Positions 14,095 to 23,436 of a DNA stretch of 25,374 bases are shown here, piece by piece. The notes beneath the pieces were generated by a model. It made no database searches, was not told the DNA's origin, and saw only the letters and a program-made list of their open reading frames with translations. Origin of the DNA: a virus. Position 1 is the first letter of the stretch, and every line of letters starts with the position of its first letter. The translations under genes were made by a program, and so were the position numbers. The stretch spans positions 1-25,374 of IMG/VR virus record IMGVR_UViG_3300042542_005685. One strand, given 5' to 3'.

Positions 14095-17000
14095 TTATAC
14101 ATCATCAAAAGATGCTCCTGTTGGTGTAATAACAAACTCGATGTCGATGTATTCTAATGCTCTTGTAGGTTTCAAGAATATTTTACCCGTTAAAGTATTG
14201 GAATCCAAATCTTCAGGTGTGTTAGAAACTGTAACTCTAAAGTCAATCAAACCTCGGTCTCTTCTAATTTGATCCAAAATTGGGTTTACTGAATCCAAGA
14301 AATCTTGTCTAACTTTATCATCATTTTGTTCGAACAACAATCTGATTGCCACTGCCGAAATCAATTTACGAGCTTGAAGTAATAGTCTTCTAACATTAAT
14401 TCTGTCAAGCGCAGACTCTTTAATTTGTAAAGTTTTATTACCCCAAATTACTGTACCCACATCTGAGAAAGTTGCAATTGGGTTAATTCTACCTTTGTAA
14501 AGTGTGTCTCTATCTTCTTGTGTAAGTTTTCTTCTTGCTTTGATTGAATTTACCAAACCTCTTGTATATCCTGCAGATGCGAACCAAGGGAAAGCAATAT
14601 TATCAGTCAAAGCTAAGTTTCTTACAACTTCAGCCGTTGGTGGTAAATAGATTTGTGTATTGTTCACAGTATCTCTTGTTAATACCCATGGGTAGTAAGT
14701 AGCCGTGTAGTTAGAGTCAATTCCTGTCTCCTCTAAGTTGTCCACAGCTTCTTGTGGGTATATTAAACCTTCTGACACATCATTCCATGTTGGTAAGAAC
14801 ATGTTAAAATCAGGAGTAGTACAAATGTAAATTGAGTCTGCTCTATCTGATTCAATTAAATCAATTGCGTCTTCAACCAAGTTAGAGTTGTTCACATAAT
14901 CGATACCCGGTGTTGTAAATATATTGATGTTTACCGCTTCAGGATTATTGAAGGTTGTTTGACCCCATTTGTAAGCGTAGTAGTCAGTGTTTGCCCAAAC
15001 CTCTTGGTTAGGTCCTGAAATTTGTTTGAAAGCTCCCCATCCAGTTGCTGTTGGATAAGTTGTGGATGGAGCTGCACCAAATTTATAACCTGTTTGACCA
15101 AGTGCGTATGTATCGGCGTTTGTTCTGTATTCTCTATAGATGTCCCATCCGTCAAAACCACCCGCAGGATACAATGTAAACTTACGAGTATTCAAACGAT
15201 AGTATGGGTTGTCTACATCGGTTGGTTCAGAATTAAATGACCCGACACCTACTTCGAATGCCGTTTCACCAGAAGTGTTAAATCCTGCTGCGATTGTTAC
15301 CACAGTGGCCCCACTATCCATGTGGAAACCTTTAACTTGGTAGTTCCATTCAGGACCTGTAGTATCTGTTGCTATGTTCGCAGGTTGTTGTTTACCTTTG
15401 TAATCGAAGAAGTCGTAGTCAACTCCGGTGATGTTAGAAATACCTAAGTATGCCTTTCTTGGGTTTTCACCATTTGAAATTACTGAATTGTCTCCCCCTG
15501 AAGTAGATCCGAAAGGTGGGTTATAAATTAAGTCACCAGGTTTCAAATATTTAGTTTTGTAAACAATGAATGGAGGTGTTGCATCATCATATAATCTCAT
15601 GGTGTAACCCTCAAAACCACATGGTAATGCGTCTTCAGGTGCCTCATCACTCATTTCTAACATTATATATTTTGAATTCAAGTTATATTCTCCGTTTGAT
15701 GTACCAATTTTATTAGCAACAAAGTTGTTTTGAGTTGGGTCTAATGAACAGTTTGTAAAACTTTCAATTACTCTCACATTTTGATCATTATCGTAGAAAT
15801 CTCTAACAAACACATCAAATGTTCTGTTGTTAAATGACATATTTGCAATTGATATTTTAACTAATCTGTTTGCCGCATTACCATCAGAAATTAATTTGAA
15901 TTTAAAAAGTTTGTATACTTTATTACCCCTCAATTCAGAAACAACATATGGTGTCTCAGGAGTCTGATACTGCTCCATGTAAAACCCGATTGAGTTTGTA
16001 GCTAATGATTTAGCACTATTTAATTCAACTAAATTACAATTTAAACCTCTGACATAACCTTGTCTATAACCATTTAAAAGAAGACTACTATAAACCTCCT
16101 CAACAAATAATGGAACTTCTGTTCTGTCTTTTGCAAAATTACTTCTACCGAATACTTTAGAAATATATTCCGAATCCGAAGTAAGCATCGACGTTTCAAA
16201 ACTGAAAGTGTCAGAATCTTTTGTTGTACCGGTAATTAAGAATGTTGCATATGGGTCTGTCGACACACCTGAGTATGCACCTGTACAAACCATACTCACA
16301 TCTGTTGTGCCCGTTACTTGATAAAGTGGTCCGTTTTGTGATGAAGAATAATTGGTAATACCTCGTGATCTTAATGTTGTAACTACAACATTATCCCATG
16401 TTGTGTTTGCGGTTGCAACATAGTTACTATAGAATACAGAAACAGTACCTGAATATGTTCCTGCCGTTGCACCTGTAGTGATAGTGGCCATTGATGCGCC
16501 AAAACCATAACCCGCATAAGTACCTGTCGGTGACGCTGGAGTATAATCAAATAATGCATAGTACCAAGCATCGTTTGTGGATGCCGAAACATTTGTAGAA
16601 GTAAACAATATACTTGGAACTCCGAAAGTTTCGGTAGATGCTGAGACCGTACCCGAACCGTTTAATGTAACACCTGTTGTTGAGTTTGCGGTTGATTGAC
16701 TTACAGAACCCCAGAATTGTGAAGTTGTACCCGTAAGTGGTGATGCTGCTACATAGTATCCGAGTTGGGTGGAAATGTAGGATTGGAAATCAGCATTTAA
16801 AGATGAAGTTCCACCGTCATATTGTGTGTAAGTACTGTAAAAATCAGAACTTAATCCAGCAGGTACTGATGTGATAGTAATATTAGCACTTGATCCTGTG
16901 GTACCTGTAAACTGTACTGTTTGAGGTCCTGTACTAGTTGTTGCCGATAAAGTCGCAGGATCTATATTACCTATAGTGGTAATAGACCAAGACGGTCCAG

Positions 17001-17310
17001 CATCATATCCTGATAAACCTAAAACTCTTGTCACAAACAACTGATTTGATTGTTGTAAGTAAGATTTAGCGATATATGAAGTTTCATATTTAGGGATTTG
17101 TGTGTTAACAAATTTTTCAGGACTAGTACCACCAAAATACACTTGGTACTCATCAAAATTTGTTATAAAAATTGGTTCGAAAGCTGGACCTTGTAAAGTC
17201 TCACCCACCAAACCAAGAGTTGTTACACCCACACTCTGTGCAACAAATGTTAAATCTCTTTCAGATGTATACACACCAGGAGACACAAATACTTTTGTTG
17301 ATGAAGCCAT
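14095..17310 (-). CDS. Contractile tail sheath protein (gp18-like), enlarged
   Basis: The N-terminus (residues 7-20, VFVSPGVYTSERDL) has the SPGVY-x-SERD signature of tail sheath proteins, followed by GLVGETLQGPAF and TNFDEYQVYFG. The C-terminal core is equally typical: FPWFASAGYTRGLVNSIKAR, RINPIATFSDVGTVIWGNKT, a RRLLLQARKLI helix, and a final strand region. Sheath subunits surround the tube and contract to drive it through the cell envelope. At 1071 aa it is much longer than T4 gp18 (659 aa). Residues about 108-370 are a Ser/Thr/Gly-rich insertion, beta-rich in character and poor in Lys, probably exposed on the outer surface; further extra sequence lies in the 560-830 region. The gene is a single transcription unit: a TATTTATA box ends 31 nt upstream and a strong hairpin follows the stop. 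Confidence 0.93.
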   Translation of the reverse strand: MASSTKVFVSPGVYTSERDLTFVAQSVGVTTLGLVGETLQGPAFEPIFITNFDEYQVYFGGTSPEKFVNTQIPKYETSYIAKSYLQQSNQLFVTRVLGLSGYDAGPSWSITTIGNIDPATLSATTSTGPQTVQFTGTTGSSANITITSVPAGLSSDFYSTYTQYDGGTSSLNADFQSYISTQLGYYVAASPLTGTTSQFWGSVSQSTANSTTGVTLNGSGTVSASTETFGVPSILFTSTNVSASTNDAWYYALFDYTPASPTGTYAGYGFGASMATITTGATAGTYSGTVSVFYSNYVATANTTWDNVVVTTLRSRGITNYSSSQNGPLYQVTGTTDVSMVCTGAYSGVSTDPYATFLITGTTKDSDTFSFETSMLTSDSEYISKVFGRSNFAKDRTEVPLFVEEVYSSLLLNGYRQGYVRGLNCNLVELNSAKSLATNSIGFYMEQYQTPETPYVVSELRGNKVYKLFKFKLISDGNAANRLVKISIANMSFNNRTFDVFVRDFYDNDQNVRVIESFTNCSLDPTQNNFVANKIGTSNGEYNLNSKYIMLEMSDEAPEDALPCGFEGYTMRLYDDATPPFIVYKTKYLKPGDLIYNPPFGSTSGGDNSVISNGENPRKAYLGISNITGVDYDFFDYKGKQQPANIATDTTGPEWNYQVKGFHMDSGATVVTIAAGFNTSGETAFEVGVGSFNSEPTDVDNPYYRLNTRKFTLYPAGGFDGWDIYREYRTNADTYALGQTGYKFGAAPSTTYPTATGWGAFKQISGPNQEVWANTDYYAYKWGQTTFNNPEAVNINIFTTPGIDYVNNSNLVEDAIDLIESDRADSIYICTTPDFNMFLPTWNDVSEGLIYPQEAVDNLEETGIDSNYTATYYPWVLTRDTVNNTQIYLPPTAEVVRNLALTDNIAFPWFASAGYTRGLVNSIKARRKLTQEDRDTLYKGRINPIATFSDVGTVIWGNKTLQIKESALDRINVRRLLLQARKLISAVAIRLLFEQNDDKVRQDFLDSVNPILDQIRRDRGLIDFRVTVSNTPEDLDSNTLTGKIFLKPTRALEYIDIEFVITPTGASFDDV

Positions 17311-19415: not shown

Positions 19416-21179
19416 ATGGAAGATTTTATTCCTAAAACCCCCGAATCTAAAGCACTCGTCGCACTTGAAAGTTATGACGGGTCAAATAACTATATTCTAA
19501 ATTTGAAACATAAAAAAGAAAATAGTAGATCTTTTACACCAACAAGAAGTCAATCGGATTACATCAACCTTTACAAAAACACAACACCTAAAGTTGCAAA
19601 AAAGTGGGTCAAGTTAGATAGTTACTTTGGGAAAAAACTGATGGAGGACAAAATGTACACGAAAGAACCGTCAGAAATATATGTAGAAAAGTTATTAGTT
19701 GAAAAAGACAAAGCTTATCATATTTGGGGTAAAATATTTTCAGGTGAAACTTTACATGATTTTTGGATGCCAAAATCAGCGCTAATTAAAGACAATGAAG
19801 TTAAAAATGTGCTTATTGAATATGATAAATATAATCACAGACCTCCGATGGATCACCAAAAAGAAGCAATAGAAAAACTTGTTAGAAACAAAAAGTTTAT
19901 TTTGGCAGATGATATGGGTCTTGGTAAGACTACTGCAACAATTATCGCAGCACTTGAGACGAGAGCTAAAAAAATATTAATTGTTTGTCCCGCTTCTTTG
20001 AAAATAAATTGGCAAAGAGAGATTGAAAACTACTCAGATAGATCTGTTTATATTTCTGAAGGAAAAAAGTTTTCAGACGAACACGATTTTGTCATCATCA
20101 ATTATGACATACTTAAAAATTTTCACGACCCAAAAAAGAAAGATGAATCCACAATTTTAAAGTCTAACTTTGATCTTATTATTATGGACGAGGCTCATAT
20201 GATCTCTAATCCCCAAGCTCAAAGGACAAAAATAGTTAATGATATAACACAAAAATCAACAAGGGTGTGGTTATTATCGGGAACCCCAATGACATCCAGA
20301 CCTATGAATTATTATAATCTTTTAAATCTTGTTGACAGTCCTGTTGCTATGAATTGGATGGCGTATGCTAAAAGATATTGTAACGGATTCCAATTTAGTG
20401 TTGGGAAAAGAAAAGTTTGGAATGTTACGGGAGCCTCAAACTTAGATGAATTAAGAGATAGGACACAAACTCACATCCTCAGAAGACTAAAAGAAGATGT
20501 TTTAGATTTACCTGAAAAAATTATCACACCTGTCTATTTAAGACTTAAATCAAAAGACTATGAAGATTTGATGGGTGAGTATTTTGATTGGTATGACAAC
20601 AATAGTGAAGAATCGTCATCATTAACTTTGCAGTTTGGGAAATTAATGAAAGTGAGAAAAATAATTGCAAGTGAGAAAGTAAAAAGCACTATAGAACTTG
20701 CTGAGAATATTATAGACCAAGGTAAAAAAGTTATTATTTTTACAAATTTTACAGATACACTACAAGAAATTTATAATCACTTTGGTAAGTCTGCAGTCTA
20801 TTTAGATGGATCTTGTTCGAAACCGCACCGACAAAATTCTGTAGACGAATTTCAAACGAACGATAAAATAAAAGTATTTGTTGGTAATTTAAAAGCAGCG
20901 GGGGTTGGATTAACTTTAACCTCAGCGGAAGCTGTAATCATGAATGATTTATCTTTTGTACCTGCAGAACATTCGCAAGCTGAAGATAGATCACATAGAA
21001 TTGGACAAAAAAATTCAACATCAGTATATTATCCTATTTTTGAAAATACAATTGAGGGTGCAATCTACGATATACTAAATAGAAAGAAAAAGATCATTTC
21101 TACAGTAATGGGTGATGATATGATGGATGACGCATCCACAATAGAAGAAATGTTAAATATGATTTCTAAACAAAGGTGA
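19416..21179 (+). CDS. SNF2-family DNA helicase/translocase
   Basis: The 587-aa product has the complete SNF2 (SF2) motor. The motifs in order are an N-terminal MDHQKEAI at residues 145-152, Walker A DDMGLGKT at 165-172, motif Ia (IVCPASLKINWQREI, 189-203), DEAH at 258-261, SGTP at 288-291, motif IV (KVIIFTNF, 438-445), motif V (GNLKAAGVGLTL, 490-501), and motif VI (QAEDRSHRIGQ, 521-531). The overall form resembles SMARCAL1-like annealing translocases that act on replication forks. T4 uses UvsW, a different SF2 helicase, for comparable fork and recombination work, so this may be a functional substitute; that is inference. The N-terminal 140 residues are not recognised. The gene heads the rightward block; its stop lies 11 nt before the SOD ATG. 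The gene starts 58 nt from the divergent gp14-like gene. Confidence 0.92.
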   Translation: MEDFIPKTPESKALVALESYDGSNNYILNLKHKKENSRSFTPTRSQSDYINLYKNTTPKVAKKWVKLDSYFGKKLMEDKMYTKEPSEIYVEKLLVEKDKAYHIWGKIFSGETLHDFWMPKSALIKDNEVKNVLIEYDKYNHRPPMDHQKEAIEKLVRNKKFILADDMGLGKTTATIIAALETRAKKILIVCPASLKINWQREIENYSDRSVYISEGKKFSDEHDFVIINYDILKNFHDPKKKDESTILKSNFDLIIMDEAHMISNPQAQRTKIVNDITQKSTRVWLLSGTPMTSRPMNYYNLLNLVDSPVAMNWMAYAKRYCNGFQFSVGKRKVWNVTGASNLDELRDRTQTHILRRLKEDVLDLPEKIITPVYLRLKSKDYEDLMGEYFDWYDNNSEESSSLTLQFGKLMKVRKIIASEKVKSTIELAENIIDQGKKVIIFTNFTDTLQEIYNHFGKSAVYLDGSCSKPHRQNSVDEFQTNDKIKVFVGNLKAAGVGLTLTSAEAVIMNDLSFVPAEHSQAEDRSHRIGQKNSTSVYYPIFENTIEGAIYDILNRKKKIISTVMGDDMMDDASTIEEMLNMISKQR

Positions 21180-21187
21180 TATTTATA
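21180..21187 (+). promoter_or_regulatory. TATTTATA box before zincin-SOD gene
   Basis: GATATTTATACAT precedes ATG at 21191; the octamer ends 3 nt before the start codon and begins one base after the helicase stop. This supports ATG 21191 rather than the upstream GTG at 21176 as the start. Confidence 0.4.
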
Positions 21188-21190
21188 CAT

Positions 21191-22276
21191 ATGAATGTTG
21201 AAATATCATATAAAGGAATCACGCCAAAAGTAGATCAAGAATTATTAATCAAAAGATTTATTACTTATCTTAAAAAAGAATATCCCCTTAAAGGTGATGT
21301 TAAAATAATTTTCACAAACAAAAGATTCGGTACTATGACCACGGGGTCGAGAACCGATAGTAGTGTTCTAAAAGTGTTAGTTAAAGACAGATTAAATCGT
21401 GATATTTTAAGAACATTGTCTCATGAGTGGCAACACGAATACCAAAGAACCGTTTTAAAAAGAAAAAAGGGAAAAGACATTGGTGGTGAAAACGAAGATG
21501 ATGCTAATGCGATTTCAGGTAAAGATGTTAAAAACTTCGAAAAAAGTAACAAAAAATTAGAAGACATTATCTATACAAAGTTTGAAAAAAAAATAAATGA
21601 GATAGAAAATAAGTTGGAAATAGTTTCATTTAATAATGAAAAAATTATAAGTGAAATTAAACACATTAGTATCGATAAATTACCATACGATTTTGATTCG
21701 TTAGGAAAATTCATAGATACTGAAACTATGAAAACTCATTATAACAAACACTATAAAGGGTATGTTGAAAAATTAAATTTAGAATTAGATAAGATTTCAG
21801 GTAAAGATTTAGATTTAGAAGAAATAATACTCAAAATTTCAAAATTTAATACAAAAGTTAGAAATAATGGTGGTGGGGCTTTTAATCACGCTCTTTTTTG
21901 GAAAATGCTTTCACCCAAAAAACAAGAATTAATAGATCCTATTAAAACTAAAATTGACAAACACTTTGGGTCTTTTGAAAAATTTAAAGAAAAATTTGAA
22001 TCAGAAGCCAAAAGTAGATTTGGTTCAGGATGGGTTTGGTTGGTTTTAACCAAAACAAATGGTCTTAAAATTGTCACTACAGCAAACCAAGATAACCCAT
22101 TAATGGATATTGAAAAAAACGGGGGGTATCCACTATTAGGATTAGATTTATGGGAACACGCATATTACCTCAAGTACAAAAATGAAAGAGACAAATATAT
22201 TAGTAATTTTTGGAAAGTTGTAAATTGGGGGTTCGTAAATGATCTCTACACCACACAAACCAAAAGGAAATTTTAA
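21191..22276 (+). CDS. Fusion of zincin-like HExxH domain and Mn-type superoxide dismutase
   Basis: The 361-aa product has two parts. Residues 1-130 contain SHEWQHEYQR (His78, Glu79, His82), an HExxH zinc-site motif, followed by an acidic ENEDDANAISGKDV segment whose Asp/Glu could be the third ligand. Residues about 164-361 are a Fe/Mn superoxide dismutase: LPYDFDSLGKFID, then KTHYNKHYKGYV (His183), NNGGGAFNHALFW (His233), and LGLDLWEHAYY (Asp319, His323). All four metal ligands are present, as are the second-shell Tyr191 and the TANQDNP motif at 297-303. The NNGGG and TANQD signatures point to the Mn-type. The His usually following KH is Tyr188 here. SOD disproportionates superoxide to oxygen and peroxide. 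A GTG at 21176 overlaps the helicase stop, but ATG 21191 is preferred. A link between the domains (residues 115-165) is charged and helical. Confidence 0.9.
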   Translation: MNVEISYKGITPKVDQELLIKRFITYLKKEYPLKGDVKIIFTNKRFGTMTTGSRTDSSVLKVLVKDRLNRDILRTLSHEWQHEYQRTVLKRKKGKDIGGENEDDANAISGKDVKNFEKSNKKLEDIIYTKFEKKINEIENKLEIVSFNNEKIISEIKHISIDKLPYDFDSLGKFIDTETMKTHYNKHYKGYVEKLNLELDKISGKDLDLEEIILKISKFNTKVRNNGGGAFNHALFWKMLSPKKQELIDPIKTKIDKHFGSFEKFKEKFESEAKSRFGSGWVWLVLTKTNGLKIVTTANQDNPLMDIEKNGGYPLLGLDLWEHAYYLKYKNERDKYISNFWKVVNWGFVNDLYTTQTKRKF

Positions 22277-22317: not shown

Positions 22318-23436
22318 ATGTCCACAGCAATAATTACAGAACCAGAAAGAAGTAAACTTTACAAAAGAATTAAAAATCTTTTGGGGGCACCATTGCGTTC
22401 AGTCGAACTCGAAGATGAAATGTTGGACTCACTTTTAGAATTATCAGTACAAGATTACGCACAACATGTTAATGATTGGTTGATTGAAAGTCAGTGGTCC
22501 TCACTTTACGGAATGAACTTAGATGAACAATCGCTAACGAGAGCCTTTACAACAAGATCATTAGATTGGGAAACTCAATATACATACGCTTATTCTAAAA
22601 TCGTGGGTCTCCAAGCTGGTGGTGATTGGGTATTGAAAAAAGACTATATTGAGTTAGTACCTCACCAACAGATATATGAAATACCGGCAGGTAGAGAAGT
22701 AAATGAATTACTTTGGTTTTCAAGATCAGAATTAGACGCAGCTTACTTTGATCCATTCATGGGTGGATTTGGTGGATTCGGTGGTATTGGATTGGGTGGG
22801 GGAGCTGGATTTTCTCAAATGGGTACGACAGGTAATTATTTTATTACACCTGCCTTTGACATCCTTTTGAGAATGTCGGACATCAATATTAAAAGAAGAA
22901 TAATTACAGGTGAACTTACATATCGAATTACAGCATTACCTGAAGGTAAAAAGGCATTACATTTAATGAATGTACCTGGTGGAAAATTTGACTTTGGGAA
23001 TATTAATTTCCAAAAATATAGAGTATGGTATTGGTACTACGATACATTTGATAGGGATGGTTGTTTAGCAGCAAATAAGGATGTTGTAAAACTTCCTTCA
23101 GATGTTCCTATCGATGAAATGAGATGGGACGAATTGAACTCACCGGCACAAACTTGGGTAAGAAGATGGTTTACAGCGTATTGTAAAGAAACATTGGCAA
23201 GAGTAAGAGGAAAATATAGTGGAAACTTAAAAACACCAGATTCAGAACTTACACTAGAATATCAGAGTTTACAAACAGAAGCAAAAGATGAAAAAGCTAT
23301 GTTATGGGAAGAATTAAAAACTCGTTTAGAAAGACTAAGACCGGAAAAACAATGGGAAATTAAAGGGTTACAGGCTGAAAATATGAACAAAACCCTTAAG
23401 TTTAGACCATTTACAAGTCCATATACCGTCATATAA
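22318..23436 (+). CDS. gp13-like neck protein
   Basis: The 372-aa product matches the layout of T4 gp13 (309 aa). Residues 14-40 (LYKRIKNLLGAPLRSVELED) correspond to the T4 'LRRLGAPIINVELTPDQ' start. A middle glycine-rich loop (residues 149-163, GGFGGFGGIGLGGGA) occupies the place of the T4 'FLLGMAGINGGMG' segment. The C-terminal part has TWVRRWFTAYCKETLARVRG and then EAKDEKAMLWEELKTRLE, parallel to T4 '[20 protein letters not shown]' and 'EEARLEKEALREEL'. T4 gp13 and gp14 form the neck that closes the head after DNA packaging. The gene is on the plus strand, apart from the gp14-like gene on the minus strand. Start choice is supported by two TATTTATA boxes upstream. It ends 7 nt before the next gene. 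Confidence 0.75.
   Translation: MSTAIITEPERSKLYKRIKNLLGAPLRSVELEDEMLDSLLELSVQDYAQHVNDWLIESQWSSLYGMNLDEQSLTRAFTTRSLDWETQYTYAYSKIVGLQAGGDWVLKKDYIELVPHQQIYEIPAGREVNELLWFSRSELDAAYFDPFMGGFGGFGGIGLGGGAGFSQMGTTGNYFITPAFDILLRMSDINIKRRIITGELTYRITALPEGKKALHLMNVPGGKFDFGNINFQKYRVWYWYYDTFDRDGCLAANKDVVKLPSDVPIDEMRWDELNSPAQTWVRRWFTAYCKETLARVRGKYSGNLKTPDSELTLEYQSLQTEAKDEKAMLWEELKTRLERLRPEKQWEIKGLQAENMNKTLKFRPFTSPYTVI

Follow-up and report, generated by a model that had tools for sequence, protein, structure and literature searches.

In phage T4, leaders of 10-20 residues direct internal proteins into the head (PMC5694885; PMC9026906), gp23 carries a propeptide of 65 residues, and Alt is processed at ITE and LTE (PMC5694885). 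Metallopeptidases are hub domains of the polyvalent proteins of phages and have been proposed to process the chains that contain them (PMC5512222). Superoxide dismutases (SODs) have been reported from freshwater phages and, in the available portion of that report, read as relieving oxidative stress (PMC6802176); the view of SOD as rare in tailed phages, taken in the preliminary description of this locus, is therefore not upheld. Freshwater phage SODs are thus already known, whereas neither a description of the zincin-leader-SOD architecture considered here nor any account of an SOD behind a head-targeting leader was found in a literature search largely confined to non-subscription papers.

The window, i.e., the whole analyzed stretch of 25,374 nucleotides (IMG/VR record IMGVR_UViG_3300042542_005685), contains a single reading frame in which a zincin-like domain (residues 1-119), a disordered linker (residues 120-155), and an Mn-type SOD (residues 156-361) follow one another. 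The features of the locus are listed below; the arrow marks a predicted cut.

19416..21179, + strand: SNF2-type helicase, conserved upstream neighbor (synteny)
21180..21187, + strand: TATTTATA element, promoter-like, of unproven role, 3 nt before the ATG
21191..22276, + strand: zincin-linker-SOD fusion gene, 361 aa plus stop
21191..21547, + strand: zincin-like (IrrE/SprT-like) domain, residues 1-119 (invariant motif, model, viral fold matches)
21422-21436, + strand: HEWQH, residues 78-82, the HExxH motif
21494-21496, + strand: E102, predicted third metal ligand, 20 residues after HEWQH
21548..21655, + strand: linker, residues 120-155, read as a leader or propeptide, with (I/L)xE motifs I135-N-E137 and I153-S-E155
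21647..21655, + strand: predicted prohead-protease-type site ISE↓I, putatively cut after E155 (conserved I/L153 and E155)
21656..22273, + strand: Mn-type SOD domain (Pfam, PDB profile, Foldseek; ligands H183, H233, D319, and H323)
22318..23436, + strand: neck (head-tail adaptor) protein, conserved downstream neighbor (PHROG 211, synteny)

Relatives of the fusion were found in at least 587 stretches of IMG/VR, 80 of which were kept for comparison of loci. The fusion is real, as the preliminary description had supposed: the same domain order recurs in hundreds of contigs, too many for chance or misassembly to account for it. The frameshift or assembly error that it had considered as an alternative is contradicted by independent, diverged contigs that keep the fusion and whose SODs form one clade (support 100/99), as well as by purifying selection on both the zincin and the SOD domain; with nothing but rarity in its favor, an artefactual junction of two genes has a negligible probability. 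The start codon is ATG at 21191, the corresponding M1 being invariant in an alignment of 48 relatives; a GTG at 21176 might serve instead. Of the three parts, the SOD shows the least amino acid change and the linker the most (in 4/4 pairs compared), with the zincin domain in between, synonymous change between the compared fusion genes being mostly near saturation.

The surroundings of the gene are conserved as well. The SNF2 helicase is located upstream in all 80 kept loci and the neck protein downstream in 75, the other loci having no neck match. Of the 54 distinct upstream regions of relatives, 28 have the TATTTATA element in exact form at 3-5 nt from the start codon, compared with 1.07 expected. 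In the 166-kb record G001, which matches the window's phage, 19 of 162 reading frames have the element within 80 nt upstream, including the sheath, tail tube, and neck genes. The window itself contains 11 copies, about 4 being expected, often located shortly ahead of a structural gene, on its coding strand (e.g., 21180, 22285, and 22296 on the + strand; 12936, 14047, 17342, and 19361 on the - strand). The position of the element before structural genes agrees with expression of the SOD together with them, and the pattern is suggestive of a late promoter; such an element fits a leadered transcript poorly, since only 3 nt separate it from the ATG. One structural gene of the window, at 14095-17310 on the - strand, encodes a 1071-aa tail sheath protein in which the known sheath domains are confined to the C-terminal end.

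The SOD assignment is supported by matches to both Pfam families, Sod_Fe_N (PF00081; E 3.9e-21, 75.8 bits against a cut-off of 27) and Sod_Fe_C (PF02777; E 4.4e-40, 136.3 bits against a cut-off of 20.9), over residues 161-350. The family profile matched solved Mn SODs in PDB at E 9e-77, and the top Foldseek match was the Mn SOD of Sphingobacterium (6gsc, E 5e-20). The metal ligands H183, H233, D319, and H323, already listed in the preliminary description, are present in the protein and invariant in 48 sequences, as are N299 and Q300 of the Mn-type NQD, the WEHAYY dimer motif, and H187 and Y191, which we take to be second-shell residues, named after E. coli SodA. The sequence strongly predicts SOD chemistry. 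In a tree with 76 cellular SODs, a long stem branch (0.42 changes per column) leads to the phage clade. Bacteroidota contribute the largest number of the nearest cellular SODs, but the sister row is a Kapabacteria sequence; therefore, these relatives hint only at a donor and not at the host. In a phage-collection record with an SOD (MW462191), the neighborhood of the gene is of bacterial type.

The N-terminal domain is well supported as a zincin fold. H78, E79, H82, and E102 do not vary in 42 sequences, among them cyanophage relatives that consist of a standalone domain (24-31% identity), and the acidic DDAN segment singled out earlier proved to be part of a longer element, GGxNEDEANA, that holds the predicted third metal ligand E102. 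When modeled alone (mean pLDDT 93), the domain shows the order helix, sheet, HExxH helix, and Glu helix that defines the zincin core (PMC5512222), so that the lack of a zincin fold, named beforehand as a finding that would speak against the domain, was not observed. Matches in BFVD (TM 0.74-0.88) include viral structures named IrrE-like and SprT-like. The fold search of PDB returned weak matches, none at E ≤ 0.001 (M61 aminopeptidase, adamalysins, and YbeY among them), and the profile search of PDB gave matches at chance level only (SprT-like Spartan at E 1.5 among them). The window's domain had no match in PHROG and no metallopeptidase match in Pfam, including none to M78 or SprT at E ≤ 1; thus, its fold and motif place it among zincin-like domains, but it is not assigned to M78 or SprT. 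Some members of its family do reach Peptidase_M78 in Pfam (best E 6.5e-5).

The linker combines low modeling confidence (pLDDT < 50 for residues 132-134 and 136-161) with a partly helical prediction. In 48 aligned sequences, the triplet at 153-155 is the only (I/L)xE present in every row over the whole protein; its middle residue varies between S, T, N, L, V, M, A, and I. A triplet of this form precedes the SOD core by 8 residues in 98 of 99 distinct sequences (82/83 with the zincin domain and 16/16 without it), compared with 1 of 47 testable cellular SODs; an exceptional VSE occurs in L080. In the zincin-less relatives the linker becomes an N-terminal leader, mostly of about 30-35 aa (e.g., MIFNNLKNKIELIESKIANVSFNNEKIISE then IKKVSVEKLPYDF), whereas in the window's protein it is internal. 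Cleavage after E155 is predicted from this three-residue motif, which is of low specificity, and helical oligomerization is an alternative role for the leader.

Domains on both sides of the SOD vary. The zincin domain is absent from 16 distinct SOD sequences at the locus, all of which keep the linker with (I/L)xE; it was therefore discarded as the sole explanation. Its presence requires 11 changes on the tree, at least 9 of them forced by well-supported branches. One SOD gene (L344) has lost part of the zincin domain in frame and kept the linker and motif, and is possibly a deletion intermediate. An SOD was found on all 80 loci reached via the neck protein (78 by motif, L395 and L396 by a WEHSYYL variant), compared with a zincin domain on only part of them. 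Relatives of 690-820 aa have additional C-terminal domains of several kinds. All 19 non-redundant junctions to these domains contain (I/L)xE; the total of 38 sites at such junctions compares with 14.1 in shuffles (0/1000 as high), and the density of the triplet inside the C-terminal domains is five times lower than at the joints. Where the chain ends after the SOD, as in the short forms, this place mostly has no (I/L)xE. In one locus (L291), one of the C-terminal modules is encoded on its own, behind an N-terminal leader (MKYIFTESQLDILKNKILINE), adjoining a zincin-less SOD. The zincin and C-terminal domains are best explained as exchangeable modules.

Comparison of the C-terminal modules with Pfam, PHROGs, and PDB gave nothing convincing. 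One module (L076, L043, L072, and L291:3923-4999) has an invariant DRKKGQD...FQxKP and is possibly PD-(D/E)xK nuclease-like; another (L054, L069, and L306-L325) has a conserved E...D...SCK and is also possibly nuclease-like. The GQD...FQxK and E...D...SCK motifs are thus a weak indication of nuclease-like modules.

A T4-type prohead protease (family S77, PF03420 over the cut-off) was found in 6 of 17 partial records, including G001 of the window's phage, which also encodes a scaffold-like acidic protein. In the major capsid proteins of 10/10 records searched, LINE↓A(S/T) stands near residue 60; in that of the window's phage, residue 60 would be the end of the leader, with the site LINE↓A. A strict helix-tag pattern applied to the 166-kb genome did not pick out leaders; a looser pattern retrieved the N-terminus of the capsid protein and two small proteins (MKKIVRLTESDLVNIVKRVIEE and MSKIVRLTESDLKRIVSRVINE), together with three internal matches. 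Small proteins at L171:12701-13174 and 14362-14715 start with KIVRLTESDL..IV.RVI.EQ, a leader common to proteins in L030, L032, and L035. The 166-kb genome also contains a long run of genes (L172, G001:40000-59999) that appear glycosyltransferase- and sugar-nucleotide-like by sequence.

On balance, we lean toward the SOD being a head-packaged cargo matured by the prohead protease, i.e., packed, cut, and probably ejected with the DNA. This reading is favored because the linker motif matches that of the T4 prohead protease and the phage has both such a protease and a capsid protein with a similar site; the SOD leader resembles the T4 tags in motif and in place. Also in its favor are the fixed motif within the part of the protein that changes most, its retention in zincin-less relatives and at the C-terminal junctions, the standalone C-terminal module with a leader, and the location of the gene between SNF2 helicase and neck protein. 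The Mn SOD would be loaded into the assembling head and matured there, residues 120-155 serving as a head-targeting propeptide comparable to the capsid targeting sequence of T4. The T4-type protease would cut after (I/L)xE at 153-155 and free a mature enzyme of about 206 residues, beginning near the point where SODs normally start. The same cut would, in the window's phage, release the zincin-like domain lying ahead of the propeptide; in relatives, this domain may be missing, or further domains may follow the SOD after similar sites. An SOD inside the capsid would enter the host with the DNA, and it may reduce superoxide levels over the first minutes after the phage infects or protect the packaged DNA. 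An earlier suggestion of a virion- or lysis-associated factor is retained in its virion part, with which the leader and its prohead-protease-type motif agree; nothing was found in support of the lysis part.

The main rival of head packaging is an SOD that acts in the host cytoplasm during infection, as an ordinary auxiliary metabolic gene limiting oxidative damage, the linker being a helical spacer or an oligomerization segment with no role in processing. We regard this as rather unlikely, though it draws on several observations: the SOD active site is intact and under strong purifying selection, the linker is predicted to be helical in part, and SOD and other oxidative-stress genes are known from freshwater phages, according to the available portion of the report (PMC6802176). 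An SOD would also be useful to the phage without packaging, and two further points count against packaging itself, i.e., the internal leader of the window's phage, unlike the N-terminal one of T4 internal proteins, and the I or M that follows the predicted SOD cut, unlike the A in the capsid protein. A cytoplasmic role leaves unexplained, however, why P3 and P1 are invariant around a variable middle residue, why the leader is kept after loss of the zincin domain, and why the same motif recurs at every C-terminal junction.

The two remaining readings center on the zincin domain. The preliminary description suggested that the metallopeptidase part processes the fusion, and such an autoprotease, freeing the SOD in the manner proposed for polyvalent proteins (PMC5512222), would account for the invariant HExxH and E102. 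We consider it improbable, because what separates the domains is an (I/L)xE of the kind cut by T4-type prohead proteases, and this site persists in the 16 distinct zincin-less sequences; it is also present at junctions far from the zincin domain and resembles the site in the capsid protein. Still less probable is a zincin effector that cleaves a host protein or repressor in an IrrE-like manner, with the SOD mainly a stable dimeric carrier. The IrrE/SprT-like fold and the occurrence of the domain alone in cyanophages are consistent with an effector, but it is the SOD that is present on every neck-protein locus, changes least, and has invariant catalytic residues.

A broader form of the packaging reading is more tentative, and we put it at somewhat below even: widespread freshwater T4-like phages may pack SOD in the head from a modular chain cut at every joint, inject it with exchangeable partners (metallopeptidase-like or, by weak motif evidence, nuclease-like), and disarm an oxidative defense at DNA entry. 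If head packaging is correct, phages bring an antioxidant enzyme as protein, and not just its gene, to the infection, and superoxide as an early host defense against the entry of phage DNA becomes testable. Leaders ending in (I/L)xE would then be a signature by which further proteins packaged in the heads of uncultured T4-like phages could be listed, and SODs in metagenomic phages would be possible virion cargo and not only metabolic genes.

Taken by its parts, the protein has close counterparts. Bacterial Mn SOD (SodA; the nearest solved structures are 6gsc/5a9g of Sphingobacterium sp. T2) has the same fold, ligands, Mn-type Gln, and WEHAYY dimer interface, whereas the phage SODs form a single long-stem clade and add, on the N-terminal side, a leader bearing (I/L)xE and, in many cases, the zincin domain. 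The latter is similar to IrrE-like (M78) and SprT-like zincins in the HExxH helix, the next Glu helix, and the fold, but differs from them in having, in the window's protein, no M78 or SprT match in Pfam at E ≤ 1 and no linked DNA-binding domain. The freshwater SODs of Kavagutti et al. (2019; PMC6802176) are likewise phage-encoded, but are treated there as metabolic genes, the available portion of that paper containing no mention of fusion, leader, or packaging. The internal head proteins of T4 and Alt, with a capsid targeting sequence cut by gp21, are similar in the T4-type protease, the short leader ending in (I/L)xE, and the matching capsid site; the system described here differs in that the putative cargo is an SOD, the leader is internal in the fused forms, and a chain may hold several cargo domains. 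Polyvalent proteins (Iyer et al., 2017; PMC5512222), in whose main-text account the word superoxide is absent, are also multidomain chains with a zincin-like metallopeptidase and exchangeable partners, but in the chains described here the joints carry prohead-protease-type motifs and the zincin domain is dispensable.
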